From contig NZ_CP041743.1 in assembly GCF_007556815.1 (NCBI RefSeq), positions 2,391,001 to 2,455,000 on the forward strand: a stretch of DNA of 64,000 bases, read 5' to 3'. Below the pieces are notes generated by a model. The model was given only the letters and a program-made list of their open reading frames with translations. It did no database searches and was not told where the DNA came from. Origin of the DNA: Paraburkholderia megapolitana. Its GTDB lineage: Bacteria > Pseudomonadota > Gammaproteobacteria > Burkholderiales > Burkholderiaceae. A program made the translations under genes and the position numbers. Positions 32,104 to 41,034 of the stretch are shown here, piece after piece. Positions within the stretch are counted from its first letter, which is position 1, and every line of letters starts with the position of its first letter.

Positions 32104-33813
32104 TCACGTCGCGTGAACGGTCTCCGCTGCACCCTTGTGTACCTCGATGCCCCGTGCCGGTGCTCCGTTTGCCACGAAATACCGTGCAGTCGAGCGCGCG
32201 AGCGCGGTCCGTCCACGAATCCGGTCGGCGATTTTCTCGGCGATCATGATGGTCGGTGCATTCAGGTTGCCGGTCGTGATCAGCGGCATGATCGACGCAT
32301 CGACTACACGCAACCCGTCGATCCCATGCACGCGGCCCTCATCGTCAACCACGGCCATGTCGTCATAGCCCATCGCACACGAGCACGAAGGGTGATAGGC
32401 CGTTTCCGCACGCGCACGCACGAATGCATCGATCTCCGCATCGCTCTGCAGCCTGGCACCGGGGCTCAGTTCATCGCCGCGAAACCGGCCGAGCGCCGGC
32501 TGCGCAATGATCTCGCGCGTAATCCGGATCGCGTCGCGGAACTCGCGCCAGTCGAGCGCTTCGGCCATGTAGTTGAAGAGGATCGACGGATGTTCGTGCG
32601 GATTGCGCGAACGCAGTTTCACGCGTCCGCGGCTCGGCGAACGCATCGAGCCGACGTGCGCCTGGAATCCGTGCATCTTGATCGCGTTGGTGCCGTTGTA
32701 GTTGATCGCCACCGGCAGGAAGTGATACTGGATGTTCGGCCACAGGTCGTCGTCGCGCGTGCGGATAAAACCGCCCGCTTCGAAATGATTGCTCGCGCCG
32801 ATACCGGTGCCTTTCAGCAGCCACTCGAGTCCGATTGCCGGCTGATTGCGCAGCAGCAGCGCCGGATAGAGCGATACGGGTTCCTTGCACGCGTACTGCA
32901 TGTACATCTCGAGGTGGTCCTGCAGATTCTGTCCGACGCCGGGCAGATCGAGCACCACTGGAATGTCCAGTTCGCGCAGCCATGCGGCCGGACCGACGCC
33001 CGAGCGCTGCAGGATCTGTGGTGAGGCGATCGCGCCACCGCACAGCAGCACTTCGCGGCGCGCGTGCACGGTGACCGACGCACCGTTGTGCAGATACGCC
33101 ACGCCGTTGGCGCGCTTGCCGCTGAAGAGAATGCGGTCGGTAGTGGCGTGCGTGACGATCGTCAGGTTCGGCCGCTGCCGCGCCTGGTCGAGGTAGCCGC
33201 GCGCAGTACTCGCGCGACGGCCGTGCGCCGTGACCGTGCGGTCCATCGGGCCGAAGCCTTCCTGCTGGTAACCGTTCAGATCGTCGGTGCGCGGATAGCC
33301 CGCCTGCACACCGGCCTCGACCATCGCTTCGAACAGCGGGTTCGCGCCGGGCTTGCTGGTGGTGACGTGAACCGGACCGTCGCCGCCGTGATAGTCGTTT
33401 GCGCCGACGTCGCGGGTTTCGGCTTTGCGGAAGTACGGCAGGCAGTCGAGATAGCTCCAGTCCCCGAGTCCTTTACGCTGTGCCCAGCCGTCGTAGTCGA
33501 GCGCATTGCCGCGGATGTAGCACATGCCGTTGATCAGCGACGATCCGCCCAACCCCTTACCGCGACCGCATTCCATCCGGCGGTTGTTCATGTGCGGTTC
33601 CGGGTCGGTCTCGTACGCCCAGTTGTAGCGCCGTCCCTGCAGCGGATAGGCGAGGGCCGCGGGCATCTGTGTGCGGAAGTCGAAGCGGTAGTCGGGGCCG
33701 CCGGCTTCGAGCAGCAGCACCGTCACGTCGCGTTCTTCGGTCAGACGCGTCGCGAGCACGTTGCCCGCCGATCCCGCGCCGATGACGATGTAGTCGTATT
33801 CGTTCGCTGCCAT
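32104..33813 (-). CDS. betA: Choline dehydrogenase
   Basis: 569 residues, GMC oxidoreductase. N-terminal FAD motif [17 protein letters not shown], then [15 protein letters not shown] (GMC signature 1), [13 protein letters not shown] (signature 2) and the catalytic-histidine stretch [10 protein letters not shown]. It oxidises choline to betaine aldehyde at the inner membrane and passes electrons to the respiratory chain. ATG 33813 has GGGAG upstream. It follows betB by 11 bp, giving the order betI, betB, betA as in many proteobacteria. Confidence 0.94.
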
Positions 33814-33824
33814 GCGACGCTCCC

Positions 33825-35294
33825 TCAAAACACCGGTTGATACTTGCCGAGTTCCACCTGAACCGACTTGATACGCGTGTAGTGCTCGAGCGTCGTGATG
33901 CCGTTCTCGCGGCCGACGCCCGATTGCTTGTAGCCGCCCACCGGCATTTCCGCCGGCGATTCACCCCACGTGTTGATCCAGCAGATGCCGGCTTCGAGAC
34001 GGTGAATCACGCGATGCGCACGCGAGAGGTTCTCGGTGACGACGCCGGCTCCGAGGCCGTAGATCGTGTCGTTGGCGCGCGCGATGACTTCTTCTTCGTC
34101 GGCGAAACTCAGCAAGCTCATCACGGGCCCAAAGATTTCTTCGCGCACGATCTGCATGTCGTCGCGGCAATCGGCGAACACGGTCGGTTGCACGTACTGG
34201 CCCTGCGCGTAATCGCCGTCGACGATCCGCGCACCGCCGGCCACGAGCCGTGCGCCTTCGCGCTTGCCGCTTTCGATGTAGCCGAGCACCTTGTCGAGTT
34301 GCGCGGCGCTCGCGAGCGGGCCGAAGTTGGTGGTGGGATCGGACGGCTTGCCAATGCGAATGCGCTTCACACGCTCGACGATGCGCGCTTCGAATTCCTT
34401 CTGCACCGACTGATGCACGAACACGCGCGTGCCGTTCGTGCACACCTGACCCGAGCTGAAGAAGTTAGCGGTGACGGCGATATCGGCGGCGCGGTCGAGA
34501 TCGGCGTCTTCGAAGACGATCAGCGGCGACTTGCCGCCGAGCTCCATCGTCACTTCCTTGAGCGTCGAGCCACCAGCCAGCGACATCACTTTCTTGCCCG
34601 TGGCGACGCCGCCGGTAAACGAAATCTTCGCGACGCCTTCGTGCCCCGCGAGCAGCGCGCCGACCCGGCCGTCGCCTTGCACGACATTGAAAACGCCCGG
34701 CGGTACACCGGCTTCGAGGTAGACTTCGGCAAGCTTGGATGCCGATAGCGGCGTGACTTCGCTCGGTTTGAAGATCATCGCGTTACCGGCTGCGAGCGCC
34801 GGCGCCGATTTCCAGCAGGCGATCTGGATTGGGTAGTTCCATGCGCCGATGCCGGCGGTGACGCCGAGCGGTTCGCGCCGCGTATAGACAAACGATTCGG
34901 CGCGCAGCGGAATCTGCTGACCCTCGATCGCAGTGGCGAGACCCGCGTAGTACTCGATCACGTCGGCACCCGTCACGATGTCGACCGAGCGCGTTTCGGC
35001 GATCGGTTTGCCGGTGTCGCGCATCTCCAGTTCGGCGAGCACGTCGTTGCGCTCGCGCAGCAACTCGACGGCGCGCCGCAGGATGCGCGAGCGCTGCATT
35101 GCGGTAAGCGCGGCCCACGCGCGCTGGCCTTCGCGTGCCGACTGCACCGCGCGGTCGATATCGGCTGCGCTCGCCTGCTGCACGGTGGCGAGCTTTGCGC
35201 CCGTGGCGGGGTCGAAGGTCTCGAAGGTCTCGCCGCTGGTGGCATCGACGTATTCGCCGCCGATATAAAGACGTTGCAGGCCGTAAGAGGTCAT
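33825..35294 (-). CDS. betB: Betaine aldehyde dehydrogenase
   Basis: 489 residues, the family length. The catalytic Cys is in [12 protein letters not shown] and the general-base Glu in [21 protein letters not shown] is the cofactor loop. It oxidises betaine aldehyde to glycine betaine with NAD(P)+ in the cytoplasm. The ATG at 35294 has AAGGAGA at optimal spacing, so the longer open frame to 35519, which overlaps betI, is rejected. It lies 44 bp after betI. Confidence 0.95.
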
Positions 35295-35338
35295 GACGGG
35301 GTTCTCCTTGTATGCGAGCTGGATATGCTGGAAACGCG

Positions 35339-35926
35339 TCAGGCTGCGTGCGCGAGCAGCATGTCGATGTAGTCGTTGGCGAGCCGCAGTGCGGCCCGGG
35401 TGTCGAATGGATCGCCTGATAGCGCGCCGCGCAGCCACAGCCCGTCGATCATCGCCGCGAGGCCGCTCGCGGCCCGGCGTGCGGCGCCGCGCGGCAGTTC
35501 CTTCGCGAATTCCGCGCACAGGTTCGAGTACAGGCGCCGCGTATTGACGCGCTGCAGACGGCGCAGCCCGGGCTCGTGCATGCTCTCGGTCCAGAACGCG
35601 AGCCAGGTTTTCATCACCGGTCCGCTAACTTGCGATACGTCGAAATTGGCGGCGACGACAGCGCGTAGCCGCGCACGAGGCTGCGCCTTCGCAGCGTTGC
35701 GCCGACGCGTGGTGGCCGCCCACAGGTCGCGCAGGATATGCCGCATCGTCGCTTCGAGCAGACCGTCCTTGTCGCCGAAGTAGTGACTGACGATCCCCGT
35801 CGAAATATTGGCGCGCTGTGCAACCGAAGCGAGCGTCGTGCCGGACAGGCCCGCCTGATCGATGGTGAGCAGGGTGGCGTCGATCAGCTGGGCGCGGCGC
35901 ACTTCACGCATTCCAAGCTTGGGCAT
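35339..35926 (-). CDS. betI: TetR-family choline-responsive repressor BetI
   Basis: 195 residues, matching BetI (about 195). The N-terminal TetR helix-turn-helix reads [20 protein letters not shown] then [33 protein letters not shown]. BetI represses the bet genes until choline binds the C-terminal domain. It is the first gene of betI-betB-betA, and a TTGA/TCAA dyad lies about 107 bp upstream. Confidence 0.93.
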
Positions 35927-36032
35927 GCTGTCGAACCCCCAAAAAACGCGAAAACCCACAAAAAACAGGCTGCACGAACCCAACACCAGAGAGCGCCAGG
36001 CTGCGAGGAAGCCGTAGCTTAGCGTTTTTTTA

Positions 36033-36048
36033 TTGACCGATCAATCAA
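36033..36048. promoter_or_regulatory. Candidate BetI operator
   Basis: TTGACCGATCAATCAA holds the dyad TTGA-N4-TCAA, with a second TCAA four bases on, in the 277-bp gap between betI and fdhA. TTGA/TCAA dyads of this type are the known BetI box pattern in enterobacteria. Confidence 0.5.
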
Positions 36049-36203
36049 CAAAAACCGCAAAAGGCGACCGTGTCGGTTTTAGTCAGACGGATGTCGGGTT
36101 TCATACACCGGGTGCGGGTGCCGAGGGGCTACGCTCGAAAGAGCGGCGTTCGCCGAATGCCGTGTCGAAATGCGTGACGTCAGACGAACATGGAGACGAG
36201 ACA

Positions 36204-37403
36204 ATGAGCAGCAATCGCGGTGTCGTGTATCTGGGGCAGGGCAAGGTCGAAATCCAGTCGATCGATTTTCCGAAGATGGTCGATCCGCGCGGTCGCGCGA
36301 TCGGTCATGGCGTGATTTTGAAAGTGGTGTCGACCAATATCTGCGGCTCGGATCAACATATGGTGCGCGGCCGCACGACGGCCGAAGTCGGCCTCGTGCT
36401 GGGCCACGAGATTACCGGCGAAGTGATCGAGGTCGGGCGCGATGTCGAGACGTTGAAGGTCGGCGATCTCGTGTCGGTGCCGTTCAACGTTGCGTGCGGT
36501 CGCTGTCAGACCTGCAAGGAGCAGCACACCGGTGTGTGCCTGAACGTGAATCCGTCGCGTGCGGGCGGTGCGTATGGCTATGTGGATATGGGCGGCTGGA
36601 TCGGCGGGCAGGCGGAGTATGTGCTCGTGCCGTACGCCGATTTCAACCTGCTGAAATTCCCGGATCGCGATCGCGCGATGGCGAAGATCCGCGATCTGAC
36701 CTGCCTGTCCGACATTCTGCCTACCGGCTATCACGGTGCCGTGATGGCGGGCGTGAAGCCGGGTGCGACGGTGTATATCGCCGGTGCCGGCCCGGTCGGG
36801 ATGGCTGCTGCCGCTTCGGCGCGGCTGCTGGGCGCGGCGTGCACGATCGTCGGCGACATGAACGAGGAACGCCTCGCGCATGCGCGCTCGGTCGGTTTCG
36901 AGACGGTCGATCTCTCACGCGATGCGACGCTCGGCGAACAGATCGCCGCGATTCTGGGCAAGCCGGAAGTGGATTGCGCGGTCGATTGCGTCGGTTTCGA
37001 GGCGCACGGCCATGGTAGCCACGGTAGCCAGGAAGAAGCGCCCGCTACGGTGCTGAATTCGCTGATGGACATCACGCGTGTGGCCGGTGCGATCGGTATT
37101 CCTGGCCTCTACGTGACAGACGATCCGGGTGCCGCCGACGCCGCCGCGCGCCGAGGCAGTCTGAGCATCCGCTTCGGCCTCGGCTGGGCGAAGTCGCATT
37201 CGTTCCACACGGGCCAGACGCCGGTGATGAAGTACAACCGCAATCTGATGCAGGCCATCTTGTGGGACCGTCTGCCGATTGCGCAGATCGTGAACGTCAC
37301 GGTCGTGTCGCTTGAAGAAGCGCCGGATGGTTATCGGAAGTTCGATGGAGGGGCGCCGCGTAAATTCGTGATCGACCCGCATGGGTTGCTGAAAGCGGCT
37401 TGA
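36204..37403 (+). CDS. fdhA: Glutathione-independent formaldehyde dehydrogenase
   Basis: 399 residues, equal to Pseudomonas FDH (about 399). Zinc motifs: NICGSDQHMVRGR, GHEITGEVIEVG, and structural cysteines CGRCQTCKEQHTGVC. Cofactor site: GAGPVGMAAAASARLLGA. It oxidises formaldehyde with NAD+ without glutathione. Formaldehyde or C1 units are released when dimethylglycine and sarcosine are demethylated, which explains its place beside the choline/betaine genes, divergent from betI. ATG 36204 has GAGACGAG upstream; the open frame reaching 36033 has no support. Confidence 0.92.
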   Translation: MSSNRGVVYLGQGKVEIQSIDFPKMVDPRGRAIGHGVILKVVSTNICGSDQHMVRGRTTAEVGLVLGHEITGEVIEVGRDVETLKVGDLVSVPFNVACGRCQTCKEQHTGVCLNVNPSRAGGAYGYVDMGGWIGGQAEYVLVPYADFNLLKFPDRDRAMAKIRDLTCLSDILPTGYHGAVMAGVKPGATVYIAGAGPVGMAAAASARLLGAACTIVGDMNEERLAHARSVGFETVDLSRDATLGEQIAAILGKPEVDCAVDCVGFEAHGHGSHGSQEEAPATVLNSLMDITRVAGAIGIPGLYVTDDPGAADAAARRGSLSIRFGLGWAKSHSFHTGQTPVMKYNRNLMQAILWDRLPIAQIVNVTVVSLEEAPDGYRKFDGGAPRKFVIDPHGLLKAA

Positions 37404-37438: not shown

Positions 37439-37478
37439 TCACGTTTGCTTCAGTAAAGCTGTACCGGGGAACCGAAAG

Positions 37479-37886
37479 TCATACCTGCAAGGCGTGCAAC
37501 ATGGTGGACTGCACGGGCTCTGCAACGCTGGTTTCTTCTGTACGGCCGAGTAGCGCAAACATTGCCCGACGGATATACGGGTCGGGGCTGTCTTCGAGTG
37601 CTGCCGCATAGCTATGCCACGTGGGGTCTTTCAACAGGTACAGGCAGATTGCCTTTAGCTCGGGGTTCTGGTCTTCCGGCAAGCCATTGACGACTTGCCA
37701 CGCTCCCCGCACATCGCCACGCTGGATCGCCATCAGCACGGGAAAGAACAGCATGTCCCGCGACGCCGGATGAGCCTCGTGCAACTGCTGCAGGAGCGTT
37801 TCCGCTTCGTCGAAACGTTCGGCCCTGATGCTGTCGAACACGGCTCGTCCTAGCCGGGCGGCCTCAGTGGTTTGGGGCAGGTCCAT
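37479..37886 (-). CDS. HrpB1/HrpK-family type III secretion protein
   Basis: 135 residues with a TPR-like helical pattern: FDEAETLLQQLHEAHPASRD, MAIQRGDVRGAWQVVNGLP, AICLYLLKDPTWHSYAAALE, and a final RRAMFALLGR. This matches the HrpB1 (Xanthomonas) / HrpK (Ralstonia) family, a small cytoplasmic or periplasmic accessory of Hrp-type type III secretion. AAGGA lies 6 nt before the ATG. It is the second gene of a two-gene unit behind a PIP-box promoter, 48 bp after a harpin-like gene. No other secretion gene is in the window. Confidence 0.72.
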   Translation of the reverse strand: MDLPQTTEAARLGRAVFDSIRAERFDEAETLLQQLHEAHPASRDMLFFPVLMAIQRGDVRGAWQVVNGLPEDQNPELKAICLYLLKDPTWHSYAAALEDSPDPYIRRAMFALLGRTEETSVAEPVQSTMLHALQV

Positions 37887-37934
37887 AGAATTCCTTGTAT
37901 TGATCGAACACCCTGTTCAAGCCGGAATCCGGGT

Positions 37935-38153
37935 TCAATCGCCCAATGCTTTCTCGATGCCTTGCAGCAGTTGCTGGAGCGCGCCACCCGATGGCGACTC
38001 GTCCGACGTCGCTTTACTCGATTCGCCGCCACCCGAACTCGTGAGATCTTTCACGGAATTTAGCGCTTCAAAACCATCCTTATGCTCTCCAAGTGCCTTG
38101 AGACCGCCGCTAGCGGAATGGCCAAGTGAACCAGCAATTGAGGCGATGCCCAT
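37935..38153 (-). CDS. Small Gly/Ser-rich harpin- or pilin-like protein under a PIP box
   Basis: 72 residues from ATG 38153 with AGGAGA at 8 nt. The upstream in-frame ATG at 38198 falls in the 5' hairpin and is rejected. The protein is acidic, rich in Gly and Ser, has no cysteine, and carries an amphipathic C-terminal helix (GALQQLLQGIEKALGD). These are features of harpins and of small type III pilus/needle subunits; no specific family was recognised. Its PIP-box promoter and the HrpB1-like gene downstream support a role in type III secretion. Secretion itself is inference. Confidence 0.6.
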   Translation of the reverse strand: MGIASIAGSLGHSASGGLKALGEHKDGFEALNSVKDLTSSGGGESSKATSDESPSGGALQQLLQGIEKALGD

Positions 38154-38193
38154 ATCGTTTCTCCTGGATTGAAAGCTGACCCGGATTGGGAAC

Positions 38194-38220
38194 TGCACTG
38201 AAACCGGTTGTTTCAGTGCA
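38194..38220 (-). other. 5'-terminal mRNA hairpin of the hrp-type unit
   Basis: Perfect 11-bp inverted repeat TGCACTGAAAC / GTTTCAGTGCA with a 5-nt loop. The -10 box ends at 38228, so transcription should begin near 38220 and this stem would form at the extreme 5' end of the message, 41 nt before the start codon. It could stabilise the mRNA, bind a regulator or affect early elongation. Confidence 0.65.
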
Positions 38221-38227
38221 TGCGATC

Positions 38228-38289
38228 ACTGTAGAGGAGGGGATGTGCCCGGAAATGGGGGCGTGCGAAATGAAGCGCTGGAAAGCGAA
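38228..38289 (-). promoter_or_regulatory. PIP/hrpII-box promoter (HrpB/HrpX-type activator site)
   Basis: Minus-strand TTCGC (38289-38285), N15, TTCGC (38269-38265), N31, TACAGT (38233-38228). It matches the plant-inducible-promoter rule TTCGB-N15-TTCGB-N30-32-YANNNT established for HrpX of Xanthomonas and HrpB of Ralstonia at every defined position. It lies 75-136 bp upstream of the harpin-like gene start. Confidence 0.85.
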
Positions 38290-38326
38290 GTGATGGCGTC
38301 GTATGGAACGCGGGTACAGGTGTGGC

Positions 38327-38344
38327 GCGTTGTCCCAACAACGC
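38327..38344 (-). terminator. Hairpin after nrdJ
   Basis: Perfect 7-bp stem GCGTTGT / ACAACGC with a 4-nt loop, 15 bp past the nrdJ stop on the minus strand and upstream of the PIP box. No T-tract follows, so it is a weak terminator candidate that could still separate nrdJ from the hrp-type unit. Confidence 0.4.
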
Positions 38345-38359
38345 GTCACACTCAAACCA

Positions 38360-40909
38360 CTACCCGCACGCGCCCACTTCCCCACACGCCGTGCAGAAGT
38401 CGCAACCATCCTTACGAATGACCGCATTCGCGCCGCACGTATCGCACTTGCGGCCGAGCATCGTGCGCAGTTCGAGCGGGCCTGCGCCTTCCGGCAGCGC
38501 GGCAGTTTCGCCGCTATCGCCGCGATCCGGTTCAGCAAGGCCGGCCACAGGCGCCGCAGCTTCAGCAAGATGCCCACGCGGCAAGCGCGCAAGCAACCGC
38601 GTCGGCACCTGATTACCTTCCGCATCGAGGAACCCACGCCGATGCAGAATCTGCTGGATCGCATAGGCAAGTGCAGCGACTTCCGAATCGTGCCAGCGCG
38701 GCGTCCGGTGCCCATCGAGCCGCAGCACATCGCCAAGCCGCACCTGGCCGCGATCCCACGACACCTTGCGCAGATCCTGCAGATTGCGCGCGACGAACCC
38801 TCCGCGCGCAGCGAGCGACAGCGAACGCATCGTCGCCGTGATCCATTGCTGCGATTCGTCGCGCTGGCCGACCGGGATGAAAAACTCGATCGGCCGCTCG
38901 ATCGTCATGTCTTCGCCGCCGACTCTGCCCGTCACCTCGATGAACGACACCGCGACATACAGCGACTTCTTGCCCACCTGCGTCAGGTATTCGACCTTCT
39001 CGATGATCGCGGGTAGTTCGCCCTTCGGCCGATGATCGATGGCGACGCGCAGCGGATCGGCGTCGATTTCAGCGAGCGCATCGTCGGTGGATTGGGGCGT
39101 CACGCTCAGCACCGCGCCGAGCGTTTCGTTGGGCCGGTAGGTGGCGAGTCCTTTCAGGCCGCCTTTCCATGCATCGAAGTAGAGGTTTTCGAACGCATCG
39201 AACGGGTAATCGGCAGGGACGTTGACAGTCTTCGAGATCGACGTGTCGATGTACGGTTGCACGGCCGCCATCATGTCGAGGTGATCGCGCGCGGACATGT
39301 CGAGCGCGCTCACGAAGTAGTCGGGCAACGCATCGACGTTGCCGCCGAACGCGCGATAGACGCGATACGCATGATCTTCGACCGCAAACGACGCACGGCT
39401 GCCATCGGCCATCACCTTCATGCGCGTATAGGTCCACGAGAACGCGGGCTCGATACCGTTCGATGCATTGTCCGCGAACGCGAGGCTCACGGTGCCGGTC
39501 GGCGCGATCGAAAGCAGATGGCTGTTACGGATGCCGTCGCGGCGAATCGATGCCTTGATGTCGTCGGGCAGGCGCGAGGCAAACGTGCCATCGGCCAGAT
39601 AGCTGTCGGCATCGAACAGCGCAAACGCGCCGCGTTCGCGCGCGAGTTCGACCGATGCGCGGTACGCCTCGTCGCGCATCAGTTGCGCGATGCGCGCGGC
39701 GAAGTCGCGGCCTTCGGCGCGGTCGTAGCGCAAGCCCAACATGACGAGCGTGTCGCCGAGACCGGTAAATCCCACACCGATGCGGCGCTTCGCACGCGAT
39801 TCGTCGTATTGCTCGGGAAGCGGCCACAGCGTCACGTCGAGCACGTCATCGAGAAAACGCACCTGCGTGCGCGTGCGTGCGGCGAGTTCGTCCCAGTCGA
39901 ACGACGGTTTGCCGCCGCGCACCTGCGCAAACGGATCGATCACGAAGCGCGTCAGATTAAGCGGGCCGAGATTGCAGCAGCCATAAGCAGGCAACGGTTG
40001 TTCGCCGCATGGATTGGTTGCGCGGATCGTTTCGAGCGTGCGCAGGTTGTTGTCTTCGTTCATCCGCGAGATGAACACGACGCCGGGTTCGGCGACGTCG
40101 TAGGTCGAGCGCATGATGCGCTCCCAGATTTCACGGGCGCGTTTCTCGGCGTACACCCACAAACCGTCTTCACGTTGCCGCAGGTCGCTGGCTGCGCGCA
40201 ACGCGGGCGACGGCTCCGCGCGATGCACGAGTTGCCACGGCAGGTCGGCTTCGACGGCCTGCATGAATTCGTCGGTGACGGCGACGGAGACGTTGAAGTT
40301 GTTCCAGCGTCCCTTCGAATGCTTGGCCTCGATGAACTCGGGCAGGTCCGGGTGTGTGCAGTCGAGCACGGCCATTTGCGCACCACGACGCGAGCCGGCG
40401 CTTTCGACAGTCCGGCACGACGCGTCGAAGACGTCGATATAACTGCACGGGCCCGATGCCGACGAACTGGTGGTGTGCACGCGCGCGCCCTTGGGGCGGA
40501 TCGCGGAGAAGTTGTAGCCGACGCCGCCGCCGCGGCGCATCGTTTCGGCCGCCTGCAGCAGTGCCACGTAGATGCCCGGCAGACCGTCTTCGTCGACACC
40601 CTGAATGCTGTCGCCGACCGGTTGCACGAAGCAGTTGATCAGCGTCGCGGCGATGCCTGAGCCGGCCGCGCTCATGATGCGCCCGGCGCCGAGCGCGCCA
40701 TGCTGCAGGTTCTCGACGAAACGCGCTTCGACCTCTTCGCGCAGCGCCGGCGGTTCGGCCTGTGCGACACCGTGCGCGACGCGCCGGTAGACGTCGTCGA
40801 CGCTTTGTTCGTCACCCTTTGCGTACTTTTCGAGCAGGACGTCGAGCGAGAATTGTTGTGGAGCGACGGAGAGCGTGCGCGCGGCGATATCGGTGTCGTT
40901 TTCGGCCAT
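38360..40909 (-). CDS. nrdJ: Adenosylcobalamin-dependent (class II) ribonucleotide reductase
   Basis: 849 residues from ATG 40909 (AGGAAA upstream). An N-terminal segment is followed by the catalytic barrel with ATNPCGEQPLPAYGCCNLG, containing the radical-site and active-site cysteines, and AGSRRGAQMAVLD. The C-terminus ends in a zinc-finger-like tail CDTCGA...CDFCTACGEVGACG, also carrying the redox-relay cysteines. It reduces ribonucleotides using adenosylcobalamin and needs no oxygen. There is no separate small subunit. The 125-bp upstream gap is too short for, and lacks, a cobalamin riboswitch. Confidence 0.93.
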   Translation of the reverse strand: MAENDTDIAARTLSVAPQQFSLDVLLEKYAKGDEQSVDDVYRRVAHGVAQAEPPALREEVEARFVENLQHGALGAGRIMSAAGSGIAATLINCFVQPVGDSIQGVDEDGLPGIYVALLQAAETMRRGGGVGYNFSAIRPKGARVHTTSSSASGPCSYIDVFDASCRTVESAGSRRGAQMAVLDCTHPDLPEFIEAKHSKGRWNNFNVSVAVTDEFMQAVEADLPWQLVHRAEPSPALRAASDLRQREDGLWVYAEKRAREIWERIMRSTYDVAEPGVVFISRMNEDNNLRTLETIRATNPCGEQPLPAYGCCNLGPLNLTRFVIDPFAQVRGGKPSFDWDELAARTRTQVRFLDDVLDVTLWPLPEQYDESRAKRRIGVGFTGLGDTLVMLGLRYDRAEGRDFAARIAQLMRDEAYRASVELARERGAFALFDADSYLADGTFASRLPDDIKASIRRDGIRNSHLLSIAPTGTVSLAFADNASNGIEPAFSWTYTRMKVMADGSRASFAVEDHAYRVYRAFGGNVDALPDYFVSALDMSARDHLDMMAAVQPYIDTSISKTVNVPADYPFDAFENLYFDAWKGGLKGLATYRPNETLGAVLSVTPQSTDDALAEIDADPLRVAIDHRPKGELPAIIEKVEYLTQVGKKSLYVAVSFIEVTGRVGGEDMTIERPIEFFIPVGQRDESQQWITATMRSLSLAARGGFVARNLQDLRKVSWDRGQVRLGDVLRLDGHRTPRWHDSEVAALAYAIQQILHRRGFLDAEGNQVPTRLLARLPRGHLAEAAAPVAGLAEPDRGDSGETAALPEGAGPLELRTMLGRKCDTCGANAVIRKDGCDFCTACGEVGACG

Positions 40910-41034
40910 GATTTCCTGCCTCGGGCGAAGGGCTGACGGACTGGAGATCATTCACTATAGCGCCATACGAGGCCATGTGTGGGCCGCTTCGGACGCGGGG
41001 CGCGGGTGCCCCGGAAACAGGCAGGAGAGGGGTG

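Follow-up and report, generated by a model that had tools for sequence, protein, structure and literature searches.

The window analysed here, a 64-kb stretch of the Paraburkholderia megapolitana genome (C1:2391001-2455000; the genome is 7.63 Mb in three contigs), contains on its minus strand a two-gene unit behind a complete PIP (plant-inducible promoter)/hrpII promoter: a 72-aa open reading frame (ORF), then 48 nt, then a 135-aa HrpB1/HrpK-like ORF. We think it somewhat probable that this unit belongs to the Hrp regulon as an accessory and encodes a small secreted protein together with its dedicated tetratricopeptide repeat (TPR) chaperone, and that it forms a dispersed, exchangeable cassette. 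This reading draws on the promoter sequence and its conservation, the gene order, the family relations and predicted fold of the second protein, the pattern of divergence between relatives, and the presence of a secretion cluster elsewhere in the genome. As far as sequence comparison can tell, both the promoter and the gene pair hold up, and there is good support for the Hrp link, which is strong because the genome has an hrp cluster with OmpR-type and AraC-type regulator genes and because the box recurs in 13 of 13 related loci.

A preliminary description of this DNA, made from the sequence alone, had placed a promoter of the form TTCGC-N15-TTCGC-N31-TACAGT ahead of the first gene, and that promoter stands. 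The full pattern TTCGB-N15-TTCGB-N30-32-YANNNT (the PIP/hrpII definition comes from the relevant excerpt of PMC3285194, where N15-16 is permitted) finds a single minus-strand match in the window, 38228-38289, whose gap is N31, and the unit thereby has the promoter that marks the HrpB/HrpX (PIP/hrpII) regulon. The PIP box starts 136 nt upstream of the ATG at 38153, and the -10 hexamer ends 74 nt upstream of the same ATG. Shuffled windows contain on average 0.16 full matches, with at least one in 14/100, and the half pattern occurs twice in the window versus 2.81 expected, so the full motif taken alone is not significant, while its context is strong. These shuffled matches, and the genome G003, which has no box directly before its unit, are what would speak for a chance match ahead of genes that HrpB does not regulate. 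We regard this as a very remote explanation, given that the site stands 136 nt ahead of the start codon of a pair related to secretion, that P. acidicola has kept it, and that it recurs throughout the Burkholderia, Paraburkholderia and Trinickia loci of a collection scan.

That scan returned 24 loci, in Paraburkholderia, Burkholderia (including B. dolosa, B. anthina and B. latens), Trinickia, Aquabacterium, Rhizobacter, Paracidovorax, Acidovorax, and one metagenome-assembled genome (MAG). Promoters were tabulated for 23 of these loci and the window; the MAG locus, where no first gene was recognised and no cargo start was found, was omitted and has a half-box without a -10 box. The full box with its -10 at 30 or 31 nt is present in the window and in all 13 Burkholderia, Paraburkholderia and Trinickia loci, 12 of them with the small gene, although many of these species are close kin and the counts are not independent. 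At one locus (L061) the full PIP box lies directly ahead of the HrpK-like gene, with no intervening cargo ORF of at least 45 aa. The Aquabacterium locus has the box without a -10, and all nine Rhizobacter, Acidovorax and Paracidovorax loci have TTCGC-N15-ATCGC, with one mismatch, 157-165 nt ahead of the ATG, six of the nine with a -10. Each row is the best of about 340 positions, so one-mismatch matches are weak alone, yet their form and place agree. Acidovorax citrulli has been screened for perfect PIP boxes, according to the part of PMC6913199 consulted; a screen of that kind would miss the Acidovorax-type box because of its mismatch. Of the other genomes, G110 and G033, the latter with two units, likewise show a full box, and G003 (L047) is the exception, with its nearest full box further upstream, before a 236-aa Gly-rich ORF.

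The Hrp-type secretion cluster occupies roughly C1:103-136 kb, on the same contig as the unit and 2.3 Mb from it, in keeping with the satellite position that had been proposed. NCBIfam models for SctN, SctV, SctR and SctJ score over their cut-offs in the cluster and HrpB4 under it, and Pfam gives Bac_export_1 (SctT type), Bac_export_3 (SctS type), FliMN_C, HpaP and three HrpB1/HrpK matches over cut-off, with a YscD match under it. An activator candidate, on which the assignment of the unit to the Hrp regulon depended, is thus present along with the sct genes: a 474-aa AraC-type gene, putatively HrpB/HrpX by its size and place. No NCBIfam model names this gene as HrpB/HrpX or the nearby OmpR-type gene as HrpG. 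The 51-kb hrp core contains 12 half-boxes where 2.5 are expected, and of the 13 half-boxes within the 80 kb that surround the cluster, 10 come with a -10 box. Beside the cluster, at C1:153.0-153.9 kb, we noted a second copy of the unit, in which a full PIP box (153057) is followed by a Gly-rich ORF of 107 aa and an HrpK-like ORF of 129 aa whose protein is 51% identical to that of the window. The window unit, called isolated in the preliminary description, is therefore isolated by position only, and is a dispersed member of a small family with the same layout. The hrp cluster also contains a 1444-aa ORF (L007:3079-7413, which is C1:113079-117413) that scores 126 bits with the XopZ effector family model, against 1300, well under the cut-off.

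The second gene had been described as an HrpB1/HrpK homologue, and it is a relative of that family, with homology over residues 20-115 and the same type of regulon. We do not count it as a canonical apparatus HrpB1/HrpK, because three stronger genes are found in the hrp cluster and because the subfamily to which it belongs is repeatedly paired with a small upstream gene. With Pfam HrpB1_HrpK (PF09613) the 135-aa protein reaches E 1.3e-6 and 28.5 bits, just missing the cut-off of 29.3 bits, versus 62.5-90.1 bits for the three canonical genes; other members of the subfamily pass the cut-off (L067 with 31.5 bits and L073 with 43.1 bits). With NCBIfam HrpB1/HrpK (TIGR02561) it has 15.3 bits, below the cut-off of 123.85, and the canonical 190-aa member of the same genome is likewise low, at 66.6 bits. 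The window protein thus differs from the described family in falling under the curated cut-offs, in having its own small upstream gene, and in lying outside the hrp cluster, and its predicted fold seems nearest to a cytosolic chaperone. The AlphaFold model (pLDDT 83) is a TPR-type helical fold of about 110 residues, and the best structural matches of this model are YscG and PscG, with 109 residues aligned at 16-20% identity, a likeness that may be one of TPR folds in general. Pfam TPR models match under their cut-offs, NCBIfam SctY gives E 9.4e-4 and 19.7 bits where the cut-off is 70 bits, and a profile of the HrpK-like family finds nothing under E 0.1 among the sequences of the PDB.

It is also conceivable, though we think it unlikely, that the HrpK-like protein, as a paralogue of the apparatus component HrpB1, acts in the periplasm or inner rod, with the small protein serving as a variant subunit of the rod, pilus or tip; the unit would then customise the apparatus. 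The Pfam match points that way, as do two Xanthomonas papers which, in the portions consulted, treat HrpB1 as a periplasmic part of the inner rod, together with HrpB2 (PMC12376730, PMC5684485), and a needle-like cargo would fit as well since YscG serves the needle subunit. Against this, the window protein scores far below the three canonical proteins of its own genome, the small protein is not identified as a subunit of rod or pilus by any family model of Pfam, NCBIfam or PHROGs, and the tree separates the subfamily from the canonical proteins, although with support of only 83/82 and with the canonical rows, chosen as the outgroup, on long branches. In that tree an ORF of Trinickia dabaoshanensis (L063:1441-2007) groups with the canonical HrpB1/HrpK; by contrast PMC6116057, in the section consulted, records hrpB1/hrpK for Mycetohabitans but for none of three Trinickia species, and gives hrpB1 as missing in T. 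dabaoshanensis. The preferred reading, of a chaperone with its cargo, finds a model in the needle chaperone complexes YscE-YscG-YscF and PscE-PscG-PscF, given the predicted fold and the adjacent small partner gene; the differences are the low identity, a cargo that is not a recognised needle subunit, and a system that is Hrp rather than Ysc. A literature search, with most subscription journals outside its scope, found no paper joining YscG with HrpB1 or HrpK and none joining HrpB1 with SctY.

The ATG at 38153 that opens the small gene comes with a ribosome site, AGGAG; were the in-frame GTG at 38198 the start, the protein would have 87 aa. It had been called harpin-like, and harpins (PopA, Hpa1 and PopW among them) are the obvious comparison. 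In composition the label fits, since the protein is 19.4% Gly, has no Cys and has a net charge of -4, and like the harpins it has an Hrp promoter, but it is only 72 aa long, composition is weak evidence, and neither harpins nor any other family of Pfam, NCBIfam or PHROGs matched it at the limits used. Its predicted fold model was too poor for a structural search. Within the short class of first genes, tblastn links it to P. acidicola (L131) and L044 no more strongly than E ~6e-5.

Across the loci the order is PIP box, first gene, HrpK-like gene and, in several, a GNAT-like gene (L044:1875-2369, L059, L074:5365-5853 and others) that is absent from the window unit; PHROGs calls it an acetyltransferase and Pfam Acetyltransf_1 falls just under its cut-off. 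The first gene is present in 22/24 loci and differs widely in length. A short class of 60-82 aa includes the window; a second class, about 75-126 aa by ORF length, mostly has a TLNPKEM...LTPEGLAA-like pattern; the Aquabacterium gene has 164 aa; and in 8/9 of the Rhizobacter, Acidovorax and Paracidovorax loci (L071-L075, L078-L080) the ORF listed has 459-654 aa. Six of the long genes, that of Aquabacterium included, are homologous to the 75-126-aa class, with which they share the N-terminal region, at E 1e-14 or better with a profile built from 11 long cargos, against which these six Comamonadaceae and Sphaerotilaceae genes were scored and for which the best shuffled decoy had E 0.0048. We rejected a single family for all cargos, as the four short cargos score no better than decoys.

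In the genus, relatives were found in 10/144 genomes (protein search, E <= 1e-5). All 10 are among the 59/144 genomes with HpaP, 49 of the 59 being without the gene (P 8e-5, uncorrected for kinship). A profile search of the bacterial family gave matches in 33/398 genomes, the weakest of which may be canonical HrpB1, and a phylum-wide search (E <= 1e-8, with the best 10 candidates at most scored per genome) matched 1/398, the source genome itself. One match came from a plasmid collection, in B. arboris, with 53.6% identity at a site without an annotated gene. The closest named relative at the window locus is Paraburkholderia acidicola ATCC 31363.

This rarity in the genus, and the fast divergence of the small gene (34% identity between the window species and its sister species P. 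acidicola, with a synonymous distance, dS, of about 1.7, near saturation), would suit a relic of an old hrp island, in which a small harpin or effector gene sits beside a leftover HrpB1-like gene without any joint function. We consider this improbable: the HrpK-like gene looks to be under purifying selection in the same comparison (protein 81% identical, nonsynonymous distance, dN, 0.11 and dS 1.0), and the pairing recurs in Burkholderiaceae, Comamonadaceae and Sphaerotilaceae.

The divergence from P. acidicola is far greater in the unit than in the genes beside it. By simple Nei-Gojobori counts, made on short genes, the flanking ribonucleotide-reductase-like (RNR-like) gene has dS 0.24 (protein 98.6% identical) and the alcohol-dehydrogenase-type (ADH-type) gene dS 0.28 (protein 100% identical). 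In 100-column blocks of the alignment with the P. acidicola locus (L057) identity is 86-100% in both flanks but falls to 46-82% over ten blocks (38351 to 37444), of which several are gappy; the shift coincides with gene borders, and the diverged unit spans about 0.9 kb. The hrp-proximal unit shows no such divergence between the two species (HrpK-like dS 0.28, cargo dS 0.41, blocks 73-96%). Faster protein evolution in place would not alone account for the raised dS of the HrpK-like gene; the comparison suggests that diverged alleles were replaced, or arrived separately, as a block. The tree places the dispersed copies of G033, P. acidicola and the window in one group (90/99, on a branch without a star), with their internal order not clear, and apart from the hrp-proximal copies (93/90). 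In G033 the dispersed unit is on another contig and other genes occupy the RNR-ADH interval. The sharp edges of the divergence, the fast cargo and slow partner, and the GNAT-like third gene of several loci might also indicate a selfish or immunity-type cassette, with a toxic small protein neutralised by its TPR partner, which would account for the block replacement. We find this very improbable, as the Hrp promoter and the occurrence, within the genus, only in HpaP-bearing genomes tie the unit to secretion, and the window unit has no GNAT gene.

The RNR-like gene was found in 18/31 genomes, our own included, and in 3/18 loci (our own, G053 and G023) the ADH-type gene lies within 1.5 kb of it. 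G053 and G023 have RNR-ADH spacers of 766-786 nt with an unrelated ORF and without similarity to the unit, which suggests that what this interval contains varies between genomes. The ORFs of these intervals (L118:736-1501 and L120:716-1501) have 68% DNA identity to each other over 722 nt. We looked for a clean empty site and rejected it, since the interval is variable and no precise insertion point was found. In G108 an AraC-type gene comes after the ADH-type gene, and neither RNR nor unit is found in the stretch examined.

For an accessory Hrp cassette of cargo and chaperone we infer the following course. An HrpB/HrpX-type AraC activator, encoded in the hrp cluster, would bind the PIP box, RNA polymerase would start a few bases past TACAGT, and one message would cover both genes. 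The first product would be a small protein, rich in Gly and with a C-terminal stretch that is amphipathic, for the type III machine to export, and the second a YscG/SctY-type TPR protein that would hold the first soluble in the cytosol and deliver it to the export gate. From another location the cassette would have entered the interval between the RNR-like gene and the ADH-type gene, and block replacement in the sister species would change the cargo variant while keeping promoter and chaperone.

Two other known systems resemble the unit. SctX-SctY (YscX-YscY) combines a small secreted protein with a TPR chaperone, as the unit is proposed to do, and SctX uses a C-terminal hydrophobic helix according to the part of PMC10233624 consulted; the SctY match is however far under cut-off, and what the cargo would share with SctX is its role, with no sequence relation seen. 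From what we saw of PMC5483457, hpaT-hpaH of clade-1 Xanthomonas is a two-gene, PIP-driven unit beside the hrp cluster whose first gene is diverse between strains, with relatives reported in Burkholderia, Paraburkholderia and others. The layout and the diverse first gene are alike, but its second gene encodes HpaH, a predicted lytic transglycosylase, instead of a TPR protein, and the HpaT repeat motif, compared by its description and not by sequence, was not noticed by eye in the cargos.

The YscG-like predicted fold and the dedicated small partner suggest a chaperone role in an HrpB1-related subfamily, and the way the block has diverged in sister species suggests that Hrp secretion in the Burkholderiales has a part that changes fast and can be exchanged. 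Such cargo-chaperone pairs seem to be a little described family that is swapped between relatives. More tentatively, and with some doubt, the HrpB1/HrpK superfamily as a whole may consist of YscG-like chaperones, with Burkholderiales cargo-chaperone cassettes, sometimes including a GNAT-like gene, dispersed from the hrp cluster and exchanged whole, so giving each strain a small secreted Hrp component that varies.

Table 1. Features of the two-gene unit, its surroundings and the putative regulators (window positions unless prefixed C1).
Feature	Position	Strand	Basis or remark
PIP/hrpII box TTCGC-N15-TTCGC	38265..38289	(-)	Pattern match; both TTCGC halves and position kept in P. acidicola L057
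-10-like hexamer TACAGT	38228..38233	(-)	31 nt past PIP box; identical in L057
10-bp perfect inverted repeat	38195..38219	(-)	Just downstream of -10 box; predicted transcript 5'-end hairpin
72-aa Gly/Ser-rich Cys-free protein, proposed secreted cargo	37935..38153	(-)	ORF; relatives in P. acidicola and L044
135-aa HrpB1/HrpK-like TPR protein, proposed dedicated chaperone	37479..37886	(-)	Pfam PF09613; AlphaFold model; YscG/PscG folds
Diverged cassette, approximate extent	37440..38351	(-)	RNR-like gene ends 38360, ADH-type gene ends 37403
RNR-like gene	38360-40951	same as unit	Precedes unit
ADH-type gene	36033-37403	convergent with unit	Gene after unit
OmpR-type regulator	C1:103351		Where HrpG would be
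AraC-type regulator, 474 aa	C1:105519-106943		Where HrpB/HrpX would be, in hrp cluster

The preliminary description had also stated that the window contains no other type III secretion gene. This agrees with a tblastn comparison of the window with 53 ORFs picked mechanically from the hrp region, of which some lay on the wrong strand, a partial coverage in which the matches were the HrpK-like gene and stretches at 16.6-18.7 kb of response-regulator or kinase type; the Pfam scan of window proteins covered five proteins. At 32104-37403 the window has betA-, betB- and betI-like genes, presumably of betaine/choline type, that adjoin the zinc alcohol-dehydrogenase-type gene, and this stretch seems to be ordinary metabolism unconnected to the unit.

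The 78-nt leader of the window unit, which contains the inverted repeat, has a folding energy of -25.1 kcal/mol (z -2.98). In P. acidicola L057 a hairpin occurs at the same place in the leader, with -19.2 kcal/mol and z -1.42, which alone is not significant. Such a hairpin might shield the message at its 5' end.
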